From Gemmatimonadota bacterium (GTDB lineage Bacteria; GCA-2686955), in contig NYZA01000264.1 in NCBI GenBank assembly GCA_002686955.1, forward strand, positions 1-9,969: a stretch of DNA of 9,969 nt, in the 5' to 3' direction. The position numbers were made by a program, and so were the translations under genes. Under the pieces are notes generated by a model. It saw only the letters and a list, made by a program, of their open reading frames with translations. It did not search any database and was not told the origin of the DNA. Of the stretch, positions 728 to 9,969 are shown piece by piece. How positions within the stretch are numbered: the stretch's first letter is position 1; every line of letters begins with the position of its first letter.

Positions 728-1060
728 ATGAGCACCGAGCCCCGACCTGAGGCGGGCGTCGACTACCCCCGCACGTTCCACGAGCTCGACACCTGGTCCA
801 GCACCGAGGATTCCTTTCGCGCCTACCTGCGCCGCCTTCGGTGGCCCGGAGGATTCCATTGCCCGCGGTGCGGAGCTCGCACGGACCCGTGGACGACCGC
901 GCGTGGGTGCTTGCACTGCCGGTCTTGCGGAGGGGAGGCATCCATCACCGCTGGCACGATTTTCGAGGGAACAACGAGGAGCAAGTCGATCGTGGTCGTG
1001 GCCGCTCAGTGCCGGCCTCGCGGAGCCTTAAGCTCGCGAACGTTGCCGGGCCAGTGGTAG
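728..1060 (+). pseudogene. IS1595-family (ISXO2-like) transposase, N-terminal fragment
   Basis: The first about 84 residues match the N-terminus of IS1595-type transposases: a YPRTFHELDTWSSTEDSF start, a zinc ribbon with CPRC (Cys45, Cys48) and CRSC (Cys64, Cys67), then SITAGTIFEGT, the conserved stretch that follows the ribbon in this family. Full-length members run to roughly 300 residues and carry a DDE-type catalytic domain after this point. Here the similarity stops near base 980; the remaining residues to the TGG/TAG at about 1060 are unrelated and lie antisense to a sigma-54 activator fragment. No catalytic residues remain, so the fragment cannot move itself. It marks a past insertion or rearrangement. 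Confidence 0.8.
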
Positions 1061-1110
1061 CTCTGGCAGGCGTGCAGGGCCTCCGCGCTGGGGGACGTTT
1101 CGGGGGGACG
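1006..1110 (-). pseudogene. Sigma-54 activator (NtrC-type AAA+) remnant
   Basis: On the minus strand bases 1030-1053 encode WPGNVREL, preceded by SAEALHACQSYH. This is the signature near the end of the sigma-54 interaction AAA+ domain (usually ...L..Y.WPGNVREL...). The matching frame stops soon after, at 1006-1008. In a neighbouring frame the next bases read ALSGHDHDRLAP, which would suit the segment that normally follows, so a frameshift is likely. I see no Walker motifs or GAFTGA loop upstream, so only a small part of the gene survives. The chance of WPGNVREL arising at random is very small. The fragment abuts the truncated transposase, suggesting that a rearrangement joined the two. Confidence 0.6.
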
Positions 1111-1388
1111 CGGGGAGCATTTGACGATAACGCAATCAGCGCTGTGCCGTACTTGGGTCCGCGAGGGAGCATTTTGGGGGAGGACGGAGTATTGGTCTTC
1201 AATCGCCGTCAGCTCGTAACCAGGCACGCCCCGTGGCTCCGCATCGCCCGAACTTCCCGCCCTGTGTGCGCGCAAGGCGGACTGCTCCGCGCGCCCCAGG
1301 GGATAGGCATCGTGGCTGATTCGTAGGTTGCGCTGATCGTCGCCGCGGAAGAGCTGAGGGCCTCTGTGACAATCTTATCAACGCGATA
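1111..1388. other. Gene-free decayed stretch
   Basis: Roughly 280 bases with no recognisable gene. Open frames on both strands are short, rich in Arg/Pro/Ser, and lack ribosome sites. It may be further decayed remains of the sigma-54 activator gene, but no domain motif could be found to show this. Confidence 0.4.
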
Positions 1389-1426: not shown

Positions 1427-2626
1427 ATGTGGTTCAAGAGAGAGTTACGAGAGACATTGGCGCGCTTGGTCGACACCAGACCGGTCGTCGTGGTCACGGG
1501 GCCGCGACAGGCCGGCAAGACCTCGTTGGTACGCCGCGCCTTCCCGGGCTACCGCTACGTCAGCCTGGATCTGCCTACGCTCGCCGCCCAAGCCGAGGAT
1601 GCGCCCGCGGAGTTTTTGCACCGCCATCCCCCGCCTTTGATCGTCGATGAGGTGCAATATGCGCCGGGGCTGTTCCGGCACCTCAAGCGCGAGGTCGACG
1701 CGAGGCGCTCTCGGAATGGCCAGTTCGTGCTCACTGGATCGCAGAAGTTCAACCTTCTGCAAGGAGTATCCGACTCTCTCGCCGGACGCACCGCGATCTT
1801 GGAGCTCGAGCCGCTCTCCTGCCGCGAAATCCTGCGTGGCAAGCCGCGGGTGGGGCTGGACGATCTTCTGCTGCGGGGAGGGTTCCCCGAGCTTCAAGCG
1901 GTCGATGGTCTGCGGGCGGACGAGTACTTCGCGGCCTACGTGGCGACATATTTGGAGCGCGATCTTCGGTCGCAGCTCAATGTGGGCAACCTGCGCGACT
2001 TCGATCGTTTCCTGCGCGCTTGCGCCTTGCGCTCGGGGCAGCTGCTGAACAAGTCGGAACTGGCGCGTGATATCGGCATCAGCCCGACAACAGCCAACAC
2101 CTGGCTCTCGGTTCTCGAGGCGTCCAACCAGGTCGTGTTGCTGGAGCCGTGGTTCAACAACGCCACGCGCTCCATGACGAAGGGCCCCAAGCTCTACTTG
2201 GCCGATACCGGCTTGCTCTGTTTCCTCATCGATATCCTGTCGGTGGATGAGCTGCACCGCTCGCCACTGCGCGGGGCAATCTGGGAGACTTTCGTTCTGA
2301 TCGAGCTGCGCAAGCGATGGCGCAGAGCGCGACCGGCTGGGCGCGTGCACTTCTGGCGTGACCGCCAGGGCGAGGTCGATTTCCTGCTCCATCAGGGAGG
2401 CAGGTTCCAGGCCCTGGAGGCGAAGTGGAGCGAGCACCCGAGCCCTCGCGACGGCAAGGGCTTCGAGCGGCTCGAGCGCTTTCTGGGGGCGGCCGCGCTG
2501 ATCTCGCGCAATATCGTCTGTCGGACGACGGAGCCCTTCCCGATCGTAGCGGGGCTCGGGGCGATGGGGATCCACGACGCCTGGTTCGAGGGAGATCAGG
2601 GCGCGGATGAAAGAAGGCGGGACTGA
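1427..2626 (+). CDS. ATP-binding protein, AAA_14 / DUF4143 family
   Basis: This 399-residue protein has the standard architecture and length of the AAA_14-DUF4143 ATPases. Walker A is GPRQAGKT (25-32), Walker B LIVDE (71-75), and a sensor-like TGSQ follows at 103-106. Residues about 205-231 (NKSELARDIGISPTTANTW) form a winged-helix-like segment. The DUF4143 part starts around YLADTGLLCFL (257-267) and ends in a nuclease-like fold with D318 in GEVDFL and EAK at 331-333, the D...ExK pattern of PD-(D/E)xK enzymes. The family is widespread, often in several copies per genome, and its biological role is unsettled. No strong ribosome site precedes the ATG. The gene stands alone between decayed DNA and a convergent gene, and looks intact. 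It has no visible signal or membrane segment, so it should be cytoplasmic. Confidence 0.93.
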   Translation: MWFKRELRETLARLVDTRPVVVVTGPRQAGKTSLVRRAFPGYRYVSLDLPTLAAQAEDAPAEFLHRHPPPLIVDEVQYAPGLFRHLKREVDARRSRNGQFVLTGSQKFNLLQGVSDSLAGRTAILELEPLSCREILRGKPRVGLDDLLLRGGFPELQAVDGLRADEYFAAYVATYLERDLRSQLNVGNLRDFDRFLRACALRSGQLLNKSELARDIGISPTTANTWLSVLEASNQVVLLEPWFNNATRSMTKGPKLYLADTGLLCFLIDILSVDELHRSPLRGAIWETFVLIELRKRWRRARPAGRVHFWRDRQGEVDFLLHQGGRFQALEAKWSEHPSPRDGKGFERLERFLGAAALISRNIVCRTTEPFPIVAGLGAMGIHDAWFEGDQGADERRRD

Positions 2627-2660: not shown

Positions 2661-2681
2661 TGACAGTATCTCAGGCTGTCA
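2661..2681. terminator. Weak stem-loop between convergent genes
   Basis: TGACAG (2661-2666) and CTGTCA (2676-2681) form a 6-bp stem with a 9-base loop in the short gap between the convergent ATPase and caspase genes; its right arm contains the caspase gene stop. On the plus strand the bases that follow are only moderately T-rich (CTCTTTTT at 2690-2697), so termination is possible but weak. Confidence 0.3.
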
Positions 2682-4499
2682 GCTCTTGCTCTTTTTCCGG
2701 TTCTTCTTCGCCTTTCGCGCCATCCAGGGTACGCGGGCCTTCACGATTCGCGCCGGTCCGAGAAGTTGGGGATGCTGGGAGTAACCCATCGCCTGAATTG
2801 TGTCGGCGGCTTTCAGTACCAAGTTCTCAAAGTTGACATTTTCCCGGCGCCGGAGCGCCGAGACGAGCGAGTAGGTGAACGCACCGTACGAAATCGCCCC
2901 GTGACGGTACTCGTAGGCGAGCTCCTCCTCGGCGCAGGCTTCCAAGATGACGGGCAGGTACGGGCCGATGGGCTCCGCTGACTCCTTGAGCGCCCGCTCG
3001 TATGTCTGATGGTCCGTTCTTCGGAGCGCCGCCGCGCGCCCCAGGCGAGCGGTTCTCCGGTCCTTGCCGAAGAAGCCGCGCGACACGTCGTCCTCTGTGG
3101 AGAAGCCTGGGTCCAGCGGTTCGAGCTTCCGCTGCTCCCAGGTCTCTGTGGCCACGTCCCAGCGAAGCCCGCGGTGCCGGATGTCGTCGGGGGGGTTGAG
3201 GCCTCTTGCCTTGGGAGCCCCGGCCCGGTGGATCCCTCCTGAGTGGCAGCAGTCGAATACCATCACGAAGCCGGTTTCATACGGCAATTGCGCATAGAGA
3301 TCGAAAATCTGATCGTCGGTCACGCAGGTTTCGGGGGACCAATCGAAGTCCCACGGGACCAGTGTCTCGTCCATCCGATCGATCGAATCCCCCATCCCGT
3401 AGGTGGGGAGCTGCGCTCCGTGCCCGCTGTAGAAGAAGAACAACACATCGTTCGGCCGCGGGTCGTCCACGAGCCAGTCGAGTCGCTCGATGATTCCCTG
3501 CGCGGTCGCGCGTCTGTTCAAGCAGACGCGGATCTCCTGGGCTGCGAATCCACACTCTTGCAGCGCTTCGCTCATCAGAAATACGTCGTTCACACAGCCC
3601 GCGAGGCGGTCGGACTCGGCCGGGTACTCATCGATCCCGACGAGCAGTGCGCGACGGTGCAGCTTTCGTTTGGGAGCACGAGTGGGTGAGCCGAAGAGTG
3701 CTCGGTAAGCGGGCTTCCCCGCTGCCCTCGACCTGCCGGCGGCGATCTGAGCGAGCGGCTCCCAGAGCAAGGCCCGAGTCGCTCGATGCTCGAGATAGTG
3801 CGTCGCCGAGTGATCCAATACTCCCTTGATGTCGAAGGATGTCTCGATTTGGCAGAAGTCGGATCGGCCGGGGAATCGAATCGGGGAGGTGAAGACATCG
3901 TCCTCCTCGTTGTACAGATGGCGCCACTGCGCGACCGGAGGCATCTCGAGCCTGCCGGGCGTGAGGTTTGCGCGGACGAAGGCGTTGCCGAGCTGAGACC
4001 CCAGCGTGACATAGTGGAGCCGTCGCAACGCCGGCTCGTGTTTGGCCGCGTCTCCATGAGTGATCGCGTTGTACGTCACGAGCGATCCCAAACTGTGGGC
4101 CAGAACGACATCGGGCCGTTGCTCCTCCAGCGCGGCGAGCACCATTGCCCGCGTGTCTTTCCGGAACCCCTCGTCCTCCAGCCAGGCGACGACGCAGCCC
4201 GCGTGCCTGCGAAGGAACTCACTGATGCCGCGCGGATCGCGGGCACCACGGGCGCGCGCACGGCTCCCGAAGATCGACGTGGCTCCGCTTCGCAGGAGCT
4301 TGTAGACGGCGACCGTCGCTTCCCACGCAGAGATGTCCACTTTCTCGAAAATATGATCGTAACTCAGGAACCGGAATTCGAGTTCGATCCCCGGGACATC
4401 GGGGAATGCGCGACGAACCGTCGCCTCCCATTCTTCCTTCCAAGGCAGATGACGGTGATCACCAAGACCATGAACCCCGAGCATGCGGAGCTTGCCCAT
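2679..4499 (-). CDS. Alpha/beta-hydrolase-like domain fused to a type I metacaspase-like domain
   Basis: This 606-residue protein has two enzymatic parts. Residues 1 to about 255 look like an alpha/beta hydrolase: GVHGLGDH (8-15) resembles the oxyanion-side strand and loop, AHSLGS (134-139) gives a nucleophile elbow with Ser136 (first Gly replaced by Ala), D200/D201 could be the acid, and H230 or H234 in DHSATHYL the catalytic His. Residues about 280-590 are a Peptidase C14 caspase domain: RALLVGIDEY (283-292), the His motif YSGHG with H360, a MDETLVPWDF segment typical of type I metacaspases, and DCCHSG (416-421) with C418 as the likely nucleophile. The p10-like end (EACAEEELAYEY...GAFTYSL, 520-544) is present. 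Metacaspases usually cut after Arg/Lys; an Arg-rich insert (about 425-510) could be self-cleaved. The tail is Lys-rich. No signal peptide. GGAGG lies 6 bases before the ATG. Domain calls are firm, substrates unknown. Confidence 0.9.
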   Translation of the reverse strand: MGKLRMLGVHGLGDHRHLPWKEEWEATVRRAFPDVPGIELEFRFLSYDHIFEKVDISAWEATVAVYKLLRSGATSIFGSRARARGARDPRGISEFLRRHAGCVVAWLEDEGFRKDTRAMVLAALEEQRPDVVLAHSLGSLVTYNAITHGDAAKHEPALRRLHYVTLGSQLGNAFVRANLTPGRLEMPPVAQWRHLYNEEDDVFTSPIRFPGRSDFCQIETSFDIKGVLDHSATHYLEHRATRALLWEPLAQIAAGRSRAAGKPAYRALFGSPTRAPKRKLHRRALLVGIDEYPAESDRLAGCVNDVFLMSEALQECGFAAQEIRVCLNRRATAQGIIERLDWLVDDPRPNDVLFFFYSGHGAQLPTYGMGDSIDRMDETLVPWDFDWSPETCVTDDQIFDLYAQLPYETGFVMVFDCCHSGGIHRAGAPKARGLNPPDDIRHRGLRWDVATETWEQRKLEPLDPGFSTEDDVSRGFFGKDRRTARLGRAAALRRTDHQTYERALKESAEPIGPYLPVILEACAEEELAYEYRHGAISYGAFTYSLVSALRRRENVNFENLVLKAADTIQAMGYSQHPQLLGPARIVKARVPWMARKAKKNRKKSKS

Positions 4500-4529
4500 G
4501 CGACGCCTCCAGATGAATTGATGGATCGA

Positions 4530-4546
4530 GTCTAGTCAAAATAGAC
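4530..4546. promoter_or_regulatory. Short inverted repeat in the divergent promoter region
   Basis: GTCTA (4530-4534) and TAGAC (4542-4546) flank a 7-base AT-rich centre, about 30 bases upstream of the caspase gene start. On the minus strand TTGACT within it could serve as a -35 box. The site could be an operator shared by the divergent genes; the match is short and may be chance. Confidence 0.2.
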
Positions 4547-4558
4547 CGTCCCGCGGAA

Positions 4559-4587
4559 TTGTGTCGCGCGAGATTCCGGCCTAGAAT
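4559..4587 (+). promoter_or_regulatory. Candidate sigma-70-type promoter for the metzincin gene
   Basis: TTGTGT (4559-4564) and TAGAAT (4582-4587) are spaced by 17 bases. The -10 box matches the consensus at five of six positions, the -35 at three. It would give a leader of about 110 bases before the ATG at 4702. This is the best promoter-like pair in the 200-base divergent gap. Confidence 0.35.
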
Positions 4588-4701
4588 GTGAATGTACGCC
4601 TCGATGCCTGGAAGGCCCCGGCATTTCGCAGGCGTAGACATGGGTCGTCGATGTGAGGCCGGAAGCGACCACTCCATCGATCAGACGAAGGGAGCCTCAG
4701 C

Positions 4702-5724
4702 ATGGCCAACGCACCGAAGATGTGTTTCGATAGGATTTTGCCGCGGGATCTCGCTCGGCCCGCGAGGCTCGTTCGAGGGTATCGGCCCGGCCGGGACCGC
4801 GCGATATCGCTGATCGGCAAGCAGTGGGTCAACGGGAGCACGATCTCCATCAGCTTTCTGGACGGCACGCAGGAGCAGAAAGAGATGGTGCGCAGTCACG
4901 CGCCGGAGTGGACCGAGTACGCGAATCTGCACTTTCAGTTCACCGAGAACCCGGTCGCCCAGATCCGAGTGACGTTCGACGCGTCCGACGGCGCGTGGTC
5001 GTATGTCGGAACCGACAATCTCGATATCCCGCTCCACGCCGCCACCCTCAACCTGGGTTGGCAAGACGAAGGTGTGATCCTGCACGAGTTCGGCCACATG
5101 ATCGGACTCAGCCACGAGCACCAAAATCCCGGCGGCGGCATGCAGTGGAACGAGGCCAGAGTCATCGCGGACCTCCAGGGGCCTCCGAACTACTGGACAG
5201 AGGCACAGATCCGCCACAACGTGCTCGACAAGTACAGTGCCGACCAGCTTCACGGTACCGAGTTCGACCCCGAATCGATCATGCTGTACGCGTTCCCGGC
5301 GGACTGGACGACCAACGGCTTCGGCACCGAGGAGAACGAAGAGCTCTCCGAGATGGACAAAGAGTTCGTGCGAGCCGCCACGATGTATCCACGCACCGCT
5401 GGGCCGGCCGATGACGACATCGTGGAGCTGCGGGTAAGTGCGGCGACATCGGCCTCGATTGGGCAGGCGGGCGAGGTAGACGAGTTCAAGTTCGAGGTGA
5501 CATCACGGGGTGCCCACGTCATCCAGACGACCGGCACGACCGACGTGTTCATGACCCTCTTCGGGCCGAACAGCAAGACCGTGAAGCTGGCCGAGAACGA
5601 TGACAGCGGGGCAGGCAGGAACGCTCTGATCCGCGCCGACCTCACGCCGGGCACCTACTACGTTCAGGTGCGGCACTACAGCCCGATCGGAATGGGGGAC
5701 TACAGCATCGCAATCCAGCGATAG
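4702..5724 (+). CDS. Metzincin-type zinc metalloprotease with C-terminal PPC-like domain
   Basis: This 340-residue protein carries the extended zinc motif HEFGHMIGLSHE (128-139): ligands H128, H132 and H138, general base E129. The Met-turn follows at SIMLY (192-196, M194, Y196), placing it among astacin/matrixin-like metzincins. The catalytic domain spans about residues 35-230. Residues about 238-340 form a beta-rich domain with DEFKFEV, VFMTLFGPN, LAENDDSG and GTYYVQVRHYS, the pattern of the pre-peptidase C-terminal (PPC) domain. The N-terminus starts MANAPKMCFDRILP and shows no signal peptide or membrane segment, yet PPC domains are usual in secreted proteases, so release may need lysis or an unusual export route. 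AAGGGAG lies about 8 bases before the ATG. The gene diverges from the caspase fusion and is followed by a PLD-like gene. The family call is firm; substrate unknown. Confidence 0.92.
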   Translation: MANAPKMCFDRILPRDLARPARLVRGYRPGRDRAISLIGKQWVNGSTISISFLDGTQEQKEMVRSHAPEWTEYANLHFQFTENPVAQIRVTFDASDGAWSYVGTDNLDIPLHAATLNLGWQDEGVILHEFGHMIGLSHEHQNPGGGMQWNEARVIADLQGPPNYWTEAQIRHNVLDKYSADQLHGTEFDPESIMLYAFPADWTTNGFGTEENEELSEMDKEFVRAATMYPRTAGPADDDIVELRVSAATSASIGQAGEVDEFKFEVTSRGAHVIQTTGTTDVFMTLFGPNSKTVKLAENDDSGAGRNALIRADLTPGTYYVQVRHYSPIGMGDYSIAIQR

Positions 5725-5735
5725 GCGCCTGCAAC

Positions 5736-5792
5736 GAAACAGCCGTGCCGGTTCGTGCCCGGAACCGGAGCGCGGAACGGCATGGCTGTTTC
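5736..5792 (+). terminator. Long stem-loop between metzincin and PLD-like genes
   Basis: GAAACAGCCGTGCCG (5736-5750) pairs along its full 15 bases with 5778-5792, with one G-U pair. Inside the loop CCGGTTC (5748-5754) can pair with GAACCGG (5762-5768), competing with the last 3 bp of the outer stem. It begins 11 bases after the metzincin stop and is followed by a loosely T-rich stretch (CCATTTTG, 5796-5803). It could be an intrinsic terminator or an attenuator that lowers expression of the downstream gene. The T-tract is interrupted, so function is uncertain. Confidence 0.5.
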
Positions 5793-5818
5793 CGTCCATT
5801 TTGTCGGAGTGAGGGGAC

Positions 5819-6729
5819 ATGAGAGTCAGAAAGAGCAAGAGCGGCGTCGCCGTGCGCGCCATCGCCGGAACCCATGTCGTGATCCTCGGCATGAACGCAT
5901 CGAAGACGGCCCGCAAGGAGCTTCTGGGCTTCGCGATCCACCGGGAGGACAAGACCGAAAACGAGCACTTCTGGCTGCGGGGGATGAAGACTTTTCTAGA
6001 GGTCGTTCCGATCCAGCTCCCGGGCGAACACCACTCTCTGCTCGAGCACCCCGCGCAGACCTTTCGCTGGGCGGACTACACGGCCAAACCGGGGCACCAG
6101 TATGTCTACACTGTCGTGCCGATGCGCGGAACACCGAAGGCCCTGGTTCAAGGCACGGGCGTCCCCGTCGAGGTAGCGACGGAGACCGAAGGCGACACGA
6201 GCCAGACCCACGATGTGTACTTCAATCGCGCAGTGGCGGGTTCGCAGGCCTACGCGCGGCGCTTCGGCAACGTGAAACCGAACAAACTGCCCACCAGCGA
6301 GCAGGCCGATGCGTATGCCTGCCTTTCACGCGGTCTCGAAGAAGCGATGACCGCATTCATCGGTCGCGCGAAGAGTTCCAACTTCGCACTGCGCGCAGCG
6401 GTCTACGAGTTCAATCATGAGGCCGCGTTGATGGAGTTCAAGAAAGCCAAGCAGGCCGGGGCCGACGTGCAGATCGTCTACGACGCCAAGAAGAAGGGCC
6501 CGAAGGCGAAGACCGTGGCGACACTCGAGTGGCGGACATCTATCTGGGGGAGTTCATGCGGCTGTTCAGCCACCACTATTTCAGGCAGGTGATCGAGTCC
6601 CAGGCCGGAGAGTCGGATGCGCCCGTCGCGCTCTATCTGACCCCGAACGATTCCTGGACGAGCCGCTACTACAAGCCGTACTCCGTGAAGCTGAAAGAAC
6701 GGCTTCTCTATTCAGGCTCGACGAGCTGA
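5819..6729 (+). pseudogene. Phospholipase D-like protein with catalytic core deleted
   Basis: The frame opened by the ATG at 5819 (GGAG 9 bases upstream) encodes the N-terminal half of a PLD-superfamily protein: a beta-sandwich-like region (LLGFAIHRED ... FRWADYTAKPGHQYVYTVVP), then VYFNRAVAGSQAYARRFG, LSRGLEEAMTAFIGRA and LRAAVYEFNHEAAL...VQIVYDAKKKG, which leads up to the first HKD motif. The match ends near 6515. From 6529, in another frame, comes VADIYLGEFMRLFSHHYF ... LTPNDSWTSRYY ... KLKERLLYS, the conserved C-terminus of the same family. Everything between, including both HxKxxxxD motifs, is absent, so a deletion of perhaps 200-300 codons has also shifted the frame. Intact relatives, as I recall them, run to about 500-600 residues. 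The first frame ends at 6592 in unrelated sequence. Any product would be catalytically dead. Confidence 0.85.
6515..6538 (+). repeat. Short direct repeat at the PLD deletion junction
   Basis: GTGGCGACA (6515-6523) and GTGGCGGACA (6529-6538) are near-identical and lie exactly where N-terminal and C-terminal PLD homology meet. Short direct repeats are common at deletion endpoints, so this fits deletion by slippage or microhomology-mediated joining. Confidence 0.5.
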
Positions 6730-6775
6730 CCCTCATCCATACCGTTCCTCCAGCTCCAGTATTGCCGTTGGATCT

Positions 6776-6800
6776 CCGATGATCGTCAGGCGATCACCGG
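6776..6800. repeat. Small hairpin downstream of the PLD remnant
   Basis: CCGATGATCG (6776-6785) and CGATCACCGG (6791-6800) form a 10-bp stem with a 5-base loop and one mismatch, which becomes a G-U pair on the minus strand. There is no T-tract on either side, so it is not a standard intrinsic terminator. Confidence 0.45.
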
Positions 6801-6828
6801 TTCGCAGAACTGTGTCGCTTCGTGGAAT

Positions 6829-7015
6829 GATAAGGGTACGCGCAAGAATAACTTGTCATTTGGCATCCCATCTGCACCACAATCGGCCGATCGGCGAGCT
6901 CCGAAATTCTCGACATAGCCGGACCATTCCTACGGTTTCGGTACTCACCAATCGACCAGATCTGCGGCACATCTGGGCGCCAAGATGACAAGTTATTCTT
7001 GCGCGAACCCTTATC
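6829..7015. mobile_element. 187-bp imperfect palindrome, MITE-like or structured RNA
   Basis: The outer 31 bases at each end (6829-6859 and about 6985-7015) are inverted copies with a single mismatch, starting GATAAGGG and ending CCCTTATC. By hand alignment the pairing goes on inward with substitutions and small gaps to CCGAAA (6901-6906) opposite TTTCGG (6935-6940), leaving a loop of about 28 bases. No transposase is encoded. TA dinucleotides lie at both edges, compatible with (but not proof of) a TA target-site duplication as in IS630/mariner-type MITEs. The right edge coincides with the first base at which beta-helix coding homology starts, as expected for an insertion into that gene. Most inner differences preserve G-U pairing in a minus-strand transcript. 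I could not name the parent element. Confidence 0.65.
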
Positions 7016-7652
7016 CGGTTCTGATCAACTGCACTATCGTCAACAACTTTGCGGGAGGTGGCGGCGGGGGGTTCGCACTTTTTCACGATTGCTCACCCAG
7101 TTTTCAAAACTGCATTATCACTGCCAACTCGGCAAACCTCGGCGGCGGTGTTTCATGTTGGTCGTCTTCGACCGATTTCAGAAACTGTACGATCGCCGGG
7201 AACAGCGCCGAAGATGGCGGCGGGATCAGCTGCTGGAGCGACTGGATGAGCACCCCCGCCGAACCGGTCCTCACCAACGGCGTTCTATGGGGCAACACTC
7301 CCGGCGCTGTCTACTACGACCCCGACGACCCCGGCTAGCCCGTGTTCACCTTCTGCGATATCGAGGGCGGCGGCTGGTACGGCACCGGCACAATCGACGC
7401 CTATCCGATCTTCCGCTCTCGCGCCGGCTTCGACTAACTGCTCGCCCCGGGTTCCCCTGCATCGACGCAGGCGACCCCACCATCGAAGACGGCATCTCCG
7501 ATTGGCACTCTCGGTGGCCACGCTGGTATCCAAACAGTGCTCCGTCCGACATGGGCGCCTACGGCGGGCCCGGCAACACCGGTTGGCGCCGGGCAACGCT
7601 ACCGCGCCGATCAGAGCGTGAGGTGAAGCCCGTCGACCAGAATCCCCGGTAG
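6985..7652 (+). pseudogene. Right-handed parallel beta-helix protein, C-terminal remnant
   Basis: From about 7015 the plus strand encodes beta-helix coils: PVLINCTIVNN, SFQNCIITANSANLGGGVSCWSS, DFRNCTIAGNSAEDGGGISC, VLTNGVLWGN. The characteristic end follows, with FCDIEGGGWYGTGTIDAYPIF, then PCIDAGDPTIEDGISD and SDMGAYGGPGNTGW. The frame is broken three times: TAG at 7336-7338, TAA at 7435-7437, and a one-base loss in the C-run at 7454-7457 that moves reading into the frame ending at 7652. Such proteins are normally much longer, exported surface or extracellular proteins; here the N-terminus and signal peptide are missing, cut off by the palindromic element. A stretch at 6793-6828 reading ITGSQNCVASWN in the same frame may be a leftover coil on the other side. 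Homology ends near 7587; the last bases overlap the neighbouring gene's 3' end. Confidence 0.85.
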
Positions 7653-8942
7653 CAGCCAGCTCTGGGTCGTTCGTCCCTCGTAGGTATCCGTATCGAAGAG
7701 GCGCTCTCGCTCTCGGGTCAGCTCGAGCATGTTGGCGCCGAAGATATTGTAGAGGGTCTCGTCGAAGCGCATGGCCGGCAGCGGGGCGACCAGCTCTCCG
7801 TCTTCCACCCAGAACGAGGCGAATCGGGTCATGCCGGTGACACGGGCGGCGGCTCGGTCGGACCAGTTCAAGTACCAGAGCCTTTGCAGATAGAGACCCC
7901 GGTCGAGCTCGGCCAGAATCGTCTTGGCTGATCGCTCTCCGGCACCGATCTCCAGCGATTCCGGGAACTCGCCTTCGTTGGCGCCGTTGGTCGTTGCTCC
8001 GTACTCGAGTGCGCTGCGAGGCGACACGAGTGGTTCGCCGGGGAGCCCTCCATCGATCAAAGCGACCCGGGACGGTCGAATGAAACCCTGGCCGTCGAAT
8101 CCTGGCGCGGTTCCTTGCGAGGTGCTCTCGTACAGGTTCACTCGGGAGTCGAGTGGGGCCTCGCCGTCCCAGAAGTGCAGCAGGGGAGAGGTCTTGGTTC
8201 GGATCCCTTCGAGCCCGAAGCCGCCCCAACAGGTGAGCATCATCAATTCCGCCACCGCGGCTGGCTCGAGGAAGGCGCGATAGGCGCCCGGTTTCACGTC
8301 GCGTGGTGGACGCGCCAGCAGATCCAGCCGTTTCGCACCCTTCTCCATCTCGCGCCGAAGTGCGTCCGGATCCCAATCGAATCCCGCGTAGGAGTCCTTG
8401 ATCCCTTTGTCGGCGTGGTGGTAGAGGGTCCATTCGAAGTTGAAAGAGTCGCTTGAAAACCAGTTGCGCTGCCCGAAGGAGTTGGCGAAGCCGCGGTGGA
8501 CCGCGCCCGCCGCGTAGATGCCGACGAGGTCGTAGCTTTCGGCGGTGTCGAGAACGATCGCCAACGCGTCTTCGCCCGCGGGTAGATCGCGGCGATCCAC
8601 CCGCTCGGTCGACCGCACTTCAGTGGAGTAGAGAAGGTGGGGGTCCTCGGGCAGGTGGGGCAGGCGTTCGCGCAGACGGTCGAGCTCTTCGTCGAGCAGG
8701 CGCCGGTCCTCCTCCGAATTGCCGCTGAGTGTAAGAGCGCTCCCCGCGTGACGTTTGCCGTCGATCAGCTCCACATAGAAAGAATGATCCTGGACCGACC
8801 CCGCCTGTCGCACTTTCCCCTCGGTCAAGCGCGCGAAATCCGACTCTTCCCCGCGGTATTGCGCGAGAAAGACCTCTTCTCCGCGAATTCTCCTTTGCAG
8901 ATGGTCGGCGAGGGTATCAAAACTGCTTCGGTGCTGATCCAT
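7611..8942 (-). CDS. TldE/PmbA-like metallopeptidase partner subunit
   Basis: This 443-residue protein belongs to the TldD/PmbA family. It lacks the HExxxH zinc motif, as expected for the TldE (PmbA) side of a TldD/TldE heterodimer. Family-like segments include VALIDGGLPGEPLVSPRSA, LWYLNWSDRAAARVTGMTRFASFWVEDGEL and MRFDETLYNIFGANM near the C-terminus. The heterodimer degrades or processes unfolded peptides in the cytoplasm, for example microcin B17 precursor and CcdA in E. coli. Two adjacent ATGs are possible. The second (8940-8942) is 6 bases after GGAGG and makes a TGATG junction with the TldD stop; the first (8943-8945) is only 3 bases from GGAGG and gives an ATGA overlap. Either implies coupling to TldD. 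The sequence looks intact, with no signal peptide. Confidence 0.88.
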   Translation of the reverse strand: MDQHRSSFDTLADHLQRRIRGEEVFLAQYRGEESDFARLTEGKVRQAGSVQDHSFYVELIDGKRHAGSALTLSGNSEEDRRLLDEELDRLRERLPHLPEDPHLLYSTEVRSTERVDRRDLPAGEDALAIVLDTAESYDLVGIYAAGAVHRGFANSFGQRNWFSSDSFNFEWTLYHHADKGIKDSYAGFDWDPDALRREMEKGAKRLDLLARPPRDVKPGAYRAFLEPAAVAELMMLTCWGGFGLEGIRTKTSPLLHFWDGEAPLDSRVNLYESTSQGTAPGFDGQGFIRPSRVALIDGGLPGEPLVSPRSALEYGATTNGANEGEFPESLEIGAGERSAKTILAELDRGLYLQRLWYLNWSDRAAARVTGMTRFASFWVEDGELVAPLPAMRFDETLYNIFGANMLELTRERERLFDTDTYEGRTTQSWLLPGILVDGLHLTL

Positions 8943-9969
8943 CATGCTCCTCCGAAAACCTGGACATCGCTGAAGAGACAGGGGGGTGTGGAATGGCCGA
9001 CATGGATCGACTGGTTCGGCTCCCCCTTACCACAGTAGGGGGTCCCGAGCATCTCGACCGTGTCGGCGCACCCCACCATTTCGAGGTGTCGCCAGAAAGT
9101 GGCGCTGATGCCGCGATAGTTCGGCTTCTTCACGACCTGAGTTAAACGACCATTCTCGATGAGCCGGCCCCACTCGCAACCGAACTGGAACTTGCGCCGA
9201 GAGTCATCGATCGACCAGGAACAGTTCGAGCGCATGTAGATGCCTCGCTCAACGGCTGCGATCATCTCCTCGAGTGTGGAGTCGCCCGGCTCCAAGTTGA
9301 GGTTCGCCATCCGGTCGATCGGCGGGCGCGCCCAGCTGCTGGCCCGACAGGAGGCGACACCGGGGAGTCCGGAGCGCGCCTGGGACGTGACGCCACCGAG
9401 GAGTCGCACGAGAACGCCGTCTTCAATAATGTGTTGCCGCTGCGCGCGCATCCCCTCGTCGTCGTAGCTGTAGCTCGCGGCTTCGCCGACGACCCCGGGA
9501 TCGAAAGTGATGTTGAGCAGTTCGCCGCCGTAGCGGTAGCTGCCCACCATCTCGGGAGTGACGAAGGTGGTCCCCGCGTAGTTCCGCTCGTCGCCCAGCA
9601 CACGATCGAGCTCCAAGGGGTGGCCGATCGACTCGTGGATCTGCAAGTAGGCCTGATCCGGCGCGATCAGCAAGCTCATGACTTCGCTCGGGCAATCCGG
9701 GGCCTCGACGAGCTCGAGCACCTCTTCGCGCATTTCCCGGGCGCTCGACTCGAAGCGGAGTTGGCGCAGCACTTCCATCCCTCCCTGGCGCAAGCTCCCG
9801 AATCCGGAAGATCGCGTCACCGTGTCGCCGCGGGCATGGGCGGCCACCCACACTCCCGGTGTCGTCAGGACGTTTCGCTGAGCCACGCGGCCGCCGTCGG
9901 AGGTGAGATAGAGGCTGTCGTTGGTGGTGTGCTGAAACGACGTGTATTGGTCCACCAGGCGCTCATCAC
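8942..9969 (-). CDS. TldD-like zinc metallopeptidase (5' end outside the window)
   Basis: The frame is open to the window edge, so the start lies beyond it; a GTG at 9953-9955 is an internal codon. The zinc motif HESIGH (HExxxH) is encoded at 9620-9637, followed by PLELDRVLGDE. Near the C-terminus PYCGKGEPNQ (Cys codon 9032-9034) matches the position of the third zinc ligand (Cys454 in E. coli TldD). Other family-like parts are TTNDSLYLTSDGG near the N-terminal side, FDPGVVGEAASYSYDDEGMRA, and PYCGKGEPNQSIHVGHSTPP. TldD is the catalytic half of the TldD/TldE heterodimer, whose barrel admits unfolded chains. Its stop codon overlaps the TldE start, so the pair is one transcription unit read leftwards. 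About 341 residues are visible; full proteins are usually around 470-480. Confidence 0.92.
   Translation of the reverse strand, partial: DERLVDQYTSFQHTTNDSLYLTSDGGRVAQRNVLTTPGVWVAAHARGDTVTRSSGFGSLRQGGMEVLRQLRFESSAREMREEVLELVEAPDCPSEVMSLLIAPDQAYLQIHESIGHPLELDRVLGDERNYAGTTFVTPEMVGSYRYGGELLNITFDPGVVGEAASYSYDDEGMRAQRQHIIEDGVLVRLLGGVTSQARSGLPGVASCRASSWARPPIDRMANLNLEPGDSTLEEMIAAVERGIYMRSNCSWSIDDSRRKFQFGCEWGRLIENGRLTQVVKKPNYRGISATFWRHLEMVGCADTVEMLGTPYCGKGEPNQSIHVGHSTPPCLFSDVQVFGGA

Follow-up and report, generated by a model that had tools for sequence, protein, structure and literature searches.

A lipase-like hydrolase and a metacaspase on one chain

The stretch of DNA analysed here (the window, 9969 bases, one entire contig of a 4.28-Mb draft MAG) encodes at 2679-4499 a protein of 606 aa in which an N-terminal alpha/beta hydrolase is joined to a C-terminal metacaspase. 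Such a fusion in one polypeptide had been proposed in a sequence-only reading of the window, and is borne out by a single ORF, a match to PF00656, 12 relatives of the hydrolase that share its triad, and a domain model that matches lipases; the strand of the gene, absent from that reading, is minus. The pairing of caspase and hydrolase is already known as separate genes, and the single-chain form is what differs. It is tentatively suggested, at somewhat less than even chances, that the protein acts as an effector complete in itself, whose metacaspase would release or activate the lipase-like hydrolase by cutting after Arg or Lys, an account favoured by the intact catalytic residues of both domains, the lipase-type fold, the recurrent adjacency of related hydrolases to caspases, and the existence of a second fusion. 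Prediction of the partnership goes back to 2020 and is based on gene neighbourhoods; no experiment on the role of the hydrolase or on its control by the caspase was found in the papers searched. With both enzymes on one chain, a 1:1 pair is guaranteed and candidate cleavage sites are defined, which makes the question directly testable.

The fusion gene is an uninterrupted ORF with an ATG start, 6 bases behind a Shine-Dalgarno sequence (GGAGG, 4506-4510, minus strand), and the codon-position pattern of G+C is alike in its two halves (GC3 of 0.75 vs 0.80). It forms a single transcription unit, with a convergent 3' neighbour (1427-2626, plus strand) and a divergent 5' neighbour (4702-5724, plus strand), and in this isolated position the protein must either be self-sufficient or act in trans. 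No transmembrane segment was detected in the 606 aa, the hydrophobic stretches being too short for a membrane helix, and on this criterion the protein is taken to be cytosolic. Neither a sensor domain nor a STAND ATPase nor a VMAP was found in the chain or beside it.

Catalytic domains

The lipase-like alpha/beta-hydrolase domain (residues 1-255; 3735-4499, minus strand) was defined using a 12-row alignment, an AlphaFold model and VIA-align. The nucleophile elbow AHSLGS lies at residues 134-139, where the earlier reading had placed it, and its serine, Ser136 (4092-4094), sits between strand 131-135 and helix 137-148 of the domain model. The plausible Asp and His partners that had been claimed for this serine can now be named as Asp200 (3900-3902), which follows strand 191-195, and His230 (3810-3812), which precedes helix 232-236, both on the minus strand like the nucleophile. 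The three residues stand in triad order and are without variation across the 12 relatives, as well as in a 5-row alignment, from which the Ser-Asp-His triad of the fused hydrolase appears complete. Modelled alone with the 5-row alignment, the domain reached a pLDDT of 72 and a pTM of 0.78, the full-length model being poor (pLDDT 54). The top VIA-align rows were alpha/beta hydrolases (Z 14.3 to 10, over 157-218 residues), with the DDHD domain of Nir2 closest (Z 14.3, 212 residues), followed by LCAT (13.0), lysosomal phospholipase A2 (LPLA2, 12.6) and a lipase of B. subtilis (11.4). Structure prediction of the N-terminal part alone thus agrees with the fold assumed from the letters, lipases being best in VIA-align and Foldseek alone giving zero matches at E<0.001. 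A Pfam search of the domain was without match at E<=0.1, and the 12 relatives gave weak matches to Abhydrolase_6 (9/12) and PGAP1 (8/12). Since Pfam is blind to this hydrolase, Pfam-based surveys of metacaspase architectures would score such proteins as metacaspase-only. The best reading of the N-terminal half, resting on the model, is a lipase-like acyl hydrolase.

The metacaspase (Peptidase C14) domain occupies residues 282-590 (2730-3656, minus strand), as delimited by PF00656 (residues 282-579, E=2.4e-29), solved metacaspases and Foldseek. The best sequence matches among solved structures, up to E=2e-24, were TbMCA2, AtMCA9, yeast and Candida metacaspase 1, and AtMCA4, and Foldseek searches with the model likewise returned solved metacaspases (metacaspase 9 and Yca1). 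The His/Cys pair that had been read from YSGHG (residues 357-361) and DCCHSG (residues 416-421) was recovered as His360 (3420-3422) and Cys418 (3246-3248), which align with H158 and C213 of TbMCA2 and are invariant in 13 metacaspases. The S1 pocket of TbMCA2 is formed by C92, D95, S156 and D211 (PMC4357240), for which the alignment gives C302, D305, S358 and D416 as counterparts, and dyad and pocket together are invariant or nearly so among the 13 metacaspases aligned. Because the pocket residues are kept, the fused metacaspase is expected to cut after Arg or Lys. It is quite probable that both domains are catalytically competent.

Activation by calcium, which the earlier reading had put forward for testing, receives weak and divided support from the alignment. 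Three of the four Ca2+ ligands of TbMCA2 (D173, D189 and D190) have equivalents in the window protein (D377, D395 and D396), but the position of the fourth, D220, is held by R425, as it is by R or K in most bacterial relatives, and the Armatimonadota fusion described below retains one ligand of four, the equivalent of D395. Control by Ca2+ as a conserved trait of the fusions is therefore unsupported. Compared with the C14B metacaspases (TbMCA2, AtMCA9 and Yca1), the fused enzyme shares the dyad, the equivalents of the S1 pocket and the overall fold, but adds the N-terminal hydrolase and an insert of ~50 aa containing RLGRA, and its Ca site is incomplete.

Rarity and origin of the fusion

A second fusion with the same domain order was found in the MAG of Armatimonadetes bacterium isolate FIMBRI1 (G153:C38, the same as L031 and L090), where it encodes 623 aa, is 36% identical to the window fusion from end to end, and overlaps an upstream peptidase M15 gene. 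It is the only one in 291 Armatimonadota genomes searched, and no further fusion was found in a cross-domain sample of ~385 genomes, in 113 genomes of the same class or in 251 of another phylum; a scan of viral sequences with the fused domains was also without match. The estimate of rarity comes from genome searches of these samples, the window's own phylum being represented by two species in the collection, and searches in phyla with 3-8 genomes are uninformative in this respect. A contig scan with poor peptide patterns returned the Armatimonadota fusion alone, which is no measure of rarity. In the sample covered, the single-chain fusion is rare and patchy, and no description of it was found in the papers searched (supplements, subscription papers and architecture databases lay outside the scope). 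The possibility raised earlier, that the fusion is a very common and already described architecture, is thus half borne out: the pairing is on record as separate genes (PMC7159879), but the single-chain form is rare.

The two-gene arrangement has been reported for VMAP caspases, which always occur with a neighbouring alpha/beta-hydrolase gene and for which joint action was suggested (Kaur et al. 2020, PMC7159879). Relatives of the window hydrolase directly adjoin caspase-fold genes at 11 of the 14 plasmid loci and 2 of the 3 viral-contig loci opened. These include plasmids of Hymenobacter (L010), Sinorhizobium (L011, L015 and L022), Rhizobium (L014), Bradyrhizobium (L018) and Agrobacterium (L019); loci of Streptomyces and Embleya, with caspase-VMAP-M2 (L008, L016 and L017) or a caspase-like-NACHT-WD40 protein (L021); and viral contigs carrying a prophage pair (L092) or a caspase-STAND-WD40 protein (L093). 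A caspase neighbour is absent at plasmid loci L009 and L020, and the L012 locus is incomplete. In the cross-domain sample, the majority of the distant chromosomal relatives have no caspase nearby, and the many chromosomal hydrolases of this kind indicate that a caspase is no obligatory partner of the hydrolase.

The window fusion resembles these systems in part. It combines the same two superfamilies as the VMAP ternary systems (PMC7159879), and its hydrolase is related to the Streptomyces hydrolases beside caspase-VMAP-M2; those systems, however, consist of separate genes with MoxR, vWA and VMAP partners, whereas the fusion is one chain with none of these nearby, and its caspase, a canonical metacaspase, branches elsewhere in the tree. 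Membership of a VMAP ternary system was rejected, the MoxR AAA ATPase, the vWA protein and the VMAP all being missing from the ORFs of the window. In the plasmid and prophage pairs (L010, L011, L014, L018 and L092), a caspase-fold protease likewise adjoins a homologue of the window hydrolase that shares its invariant triad, but in separate genes, with a caspase of a divergent clade that has a long C-terminal region, and with a hydrolase identity of 20-25%. A rare lipase-bearing type of metacaspase, with a GDSL lipase and an amidase, is known from Chitinophaga pinensis (PMC3501461). It combines the activities of a metacaspase and a lipase in a single polypeptide, as predicted for the window fusion, but its GDSL/SGNH fold belongs to another lipase superfamily that is not homologous to the window hydrolase, and it has the extra amidase. 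No direct connection with the LypABC lysis system was retained, since the LypABC peptidase is trypsin-like.

In the hydrolase tree, the two fused hydrolases form one clade (100/99) on a long stem. The two fused caspases also form a clade (SH-aLRT 100), nested among stand-alone metacaspases (99) and apart from the operon-paired caspases, in a tree made by a quick method, with long-branched paired rows and with a stand-alone set collected using the fused caspase as query. That the fused caspase is an orthologue of the operon-paired caspases is unsupported by this tree, with the same reservation on method and branch lengths. Nine of the 10 neighbourhoods of the nearest stand-alone metacaspases are without a hydrolase relative, and the tenth has a weak match at some distance. 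The nesting of the fused caspases with stand-alone metacaspases, away from the paired ones, points to a coupling that arose separately, and the fusion is probably a capture independent of the operon pairs. Caspases of different lineages thus probably acquired such a partner on more than one occasion, and this repetition argues for a functional pairing.

Proposed mode of action and alternatives

The interdomain linker (residues 253-282; 3654-3743, minus strand) was identified by composition and by alignment with the sister fusion. That it is Arg-rich, as the sequence-only reading had it, holds in terms of composition (9/30 R/K, permutation p=0.013), but the whole protein is Arg-rich and two further segments are as basic. 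At the junction ahead of the caspase domain, R278, K279 and R283 are retained in the sister fusion, and the remaining linker sequence is poorly conserved between the two. An insert of ~50 aa between p20 and p10 (about residues 460-510; 2970-3122, minus strand), where model confidence is low, carries RLGRA (residues 485-489; 3033-3047, minus strand), a candidate cleavage or docking motif; insert and motif are present in both fusions and missing from the nearest stand-alone metacaspases in the 13-metacaspase alignment. The chain ends in a very basic tail (residues 588-606; 2682-2738, minus strand; 47% R/K). TbMCA2 has processing sites at K55, in the N-terminal part, and at K268, in the p20-p10 region, and by this analogy the junction and the insert of the fusion are natural candidate cleavage sites. 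A mutant of TbMCA2 in K55 and K268 is named in PMC9622860.

That the hydrolase is switched on by caspase cleavage, as the sequence-only reading had considered, is an inference that fits the S1 pocket, the R278/K279/R283 cluster and the RLGRA insert. The chain would be held as a zymogen in the resting cell until a trigger, possibly Ca2+ or stress or infection, activates the metacaspase, which would mature itself by an Arg/Lys cut within the RLGRA insert and also cut the basic linker ahead of the caspase domain. The lipase-like hydrolase, so released or unblocked, would attack an acyl ester, most likely in a membrane lipid, leading to growth arrest or cell death. A protease that switches on a partner effector has a precedent in the canu caspase-nuclease system (PMC12799240), in which cleavage by a caspase unlocks a hydrolytic effector encoded alongside it. 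Unlike the fusion, canu consists of separate genes with an MBL-fold nuclease, Ig-like domains and a CanB partner, and membership was rejected, the MBL-fold pro-nuclease and the Ig domain being missing from the window. In its most specific version, as a caspase-gated one-protein (phospho)lipase of a new lineage, which a metacaspase captured independently of known operons and whose self-cleavage at the fusion-only insert would bring about death or arrest of the cell that makes it, the proposal is rather unlikely to hold in every part.

The strongest competing explanation, itself unlikely, is that the two domains are effectors on one chain without proteolytic control, fused only for co-expression and co-localisation. 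The intact state of both catalytic sites agrees with it, as do the poor conservation of the linker and the occurrence of the two proteins elsewhere as separate genes in either order, which indicates that tethering is unnecessary. On the other hand, an unregulated cytosolic lipase and protease would be toxic, and it is the basic residues flanking the caspase and the RLGRA insert that both fusions have kept, not the rest of the linker. The hydrolase may instead be a sensor or regulator that, upon binding or processing a lipid or acyl signal, gates a metacaspase executioner. Type I metacaspases have their regulatory prodomains at the N-terminus, the place that the hydrolase takes here. Related hydrolases moreover adjoin caspases in NTPase-regulated systems (PMC7159879); yet the full triad is conserved, which mere binding would not need, and close stand-alone metacaspases work without a hydrolase, so that this role is considered improbable. 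To a housekeeping enzyme of stress response or lipid maintenance, unrelated to conflict or cell death, a similarly low probability is assigned. The short contig is without a visible defence island and has ordinary TldD/PmbA genes among its genes, and non-death roles are attributed to many metacaspases in literature cited in PMC4933709, but the very patchy distribution (1/291 Armatimonadota genomes, none further in the cross-domain sample), the recurrent plasmid-borne caspase-hydrolase pairs and the match of the neighbouring ATPase to PADLOC PDC-S01 speak against it. That two genes were joined by an assembly or frame error, or that the ORF is spurious, might be suspected in a whole short contig of a draft MAG, but an unrelated assembly from another phylum encodes a protein that has its domains in the same order and is similar over its full length; with an uninterrupted ORF, a ribosome-binding site and uniform codon usage in addition, an artefact is so improbable that it was discarded. 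The reading in which the metacaspase would unlock the hydrolase is considered the likeliest of these.

Neighbouring genes

Weak hints of a defence context are present on the 10-kb contig. The convergent neighbour of the fusion gene (1427-2626, plus strand) encodes an AAA_14/DUF4143 ATPase that matches the PADLOC candidate defence family PDC-S01 (E=2.8e-95). Adjoining it at 728-1326 (plus strand) is an IS1595-type transposase remnant, recognised by a zinc-ribbon match and split across frames, a sign of past mobile-element activity. The divergent neighbour (4702-5724, plus strand) encodes an astacin-like metallopeptidase with a PPC domain, and is followed by a phospholipase-D-like ORF (5819-6920, plus strand) that seems to run on in other frames past ~6540 and 6729 and to be a decayed or mis-assembled gene. 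Two ordinary TldD/PmbA-type metallopeptidase genes (7611-8945 and 8942-9967, minus strand) overlap by 4 bases.

Several loci with separate genes also have features of their own. The caspase-hydrolase pairs of L019 (3302-8200) and L022 (1549-4384) adjoin plasmid repABC genes, and in L019 two caspase genes lie end to end behind the hydrolase. On the rhizobial plasmids L011 and L014 (~4495-7634), the pair is followed by a conserved set of genes that includes a C1-family peptidase and, in L014, an annotated I42 inhibitor-type protein. In L073 (5022-8153, minus strand) the hydrolase relative adjoins a C25 gingipain-type peptidase, likewise of the caspase clan; this pair is missing in two sister genomes, where a cyclase-like gene is found instead. 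On the viral contig L092 (2698-9362), caspase and hydrolase genes overlap by 4 bases and are followed by an apparent type I restriction helicase subunit, and on the phage-like contig L091 a hydrolase relative (4992-5657) lies, without a caspase, between tail/lysis genes and the terminase.
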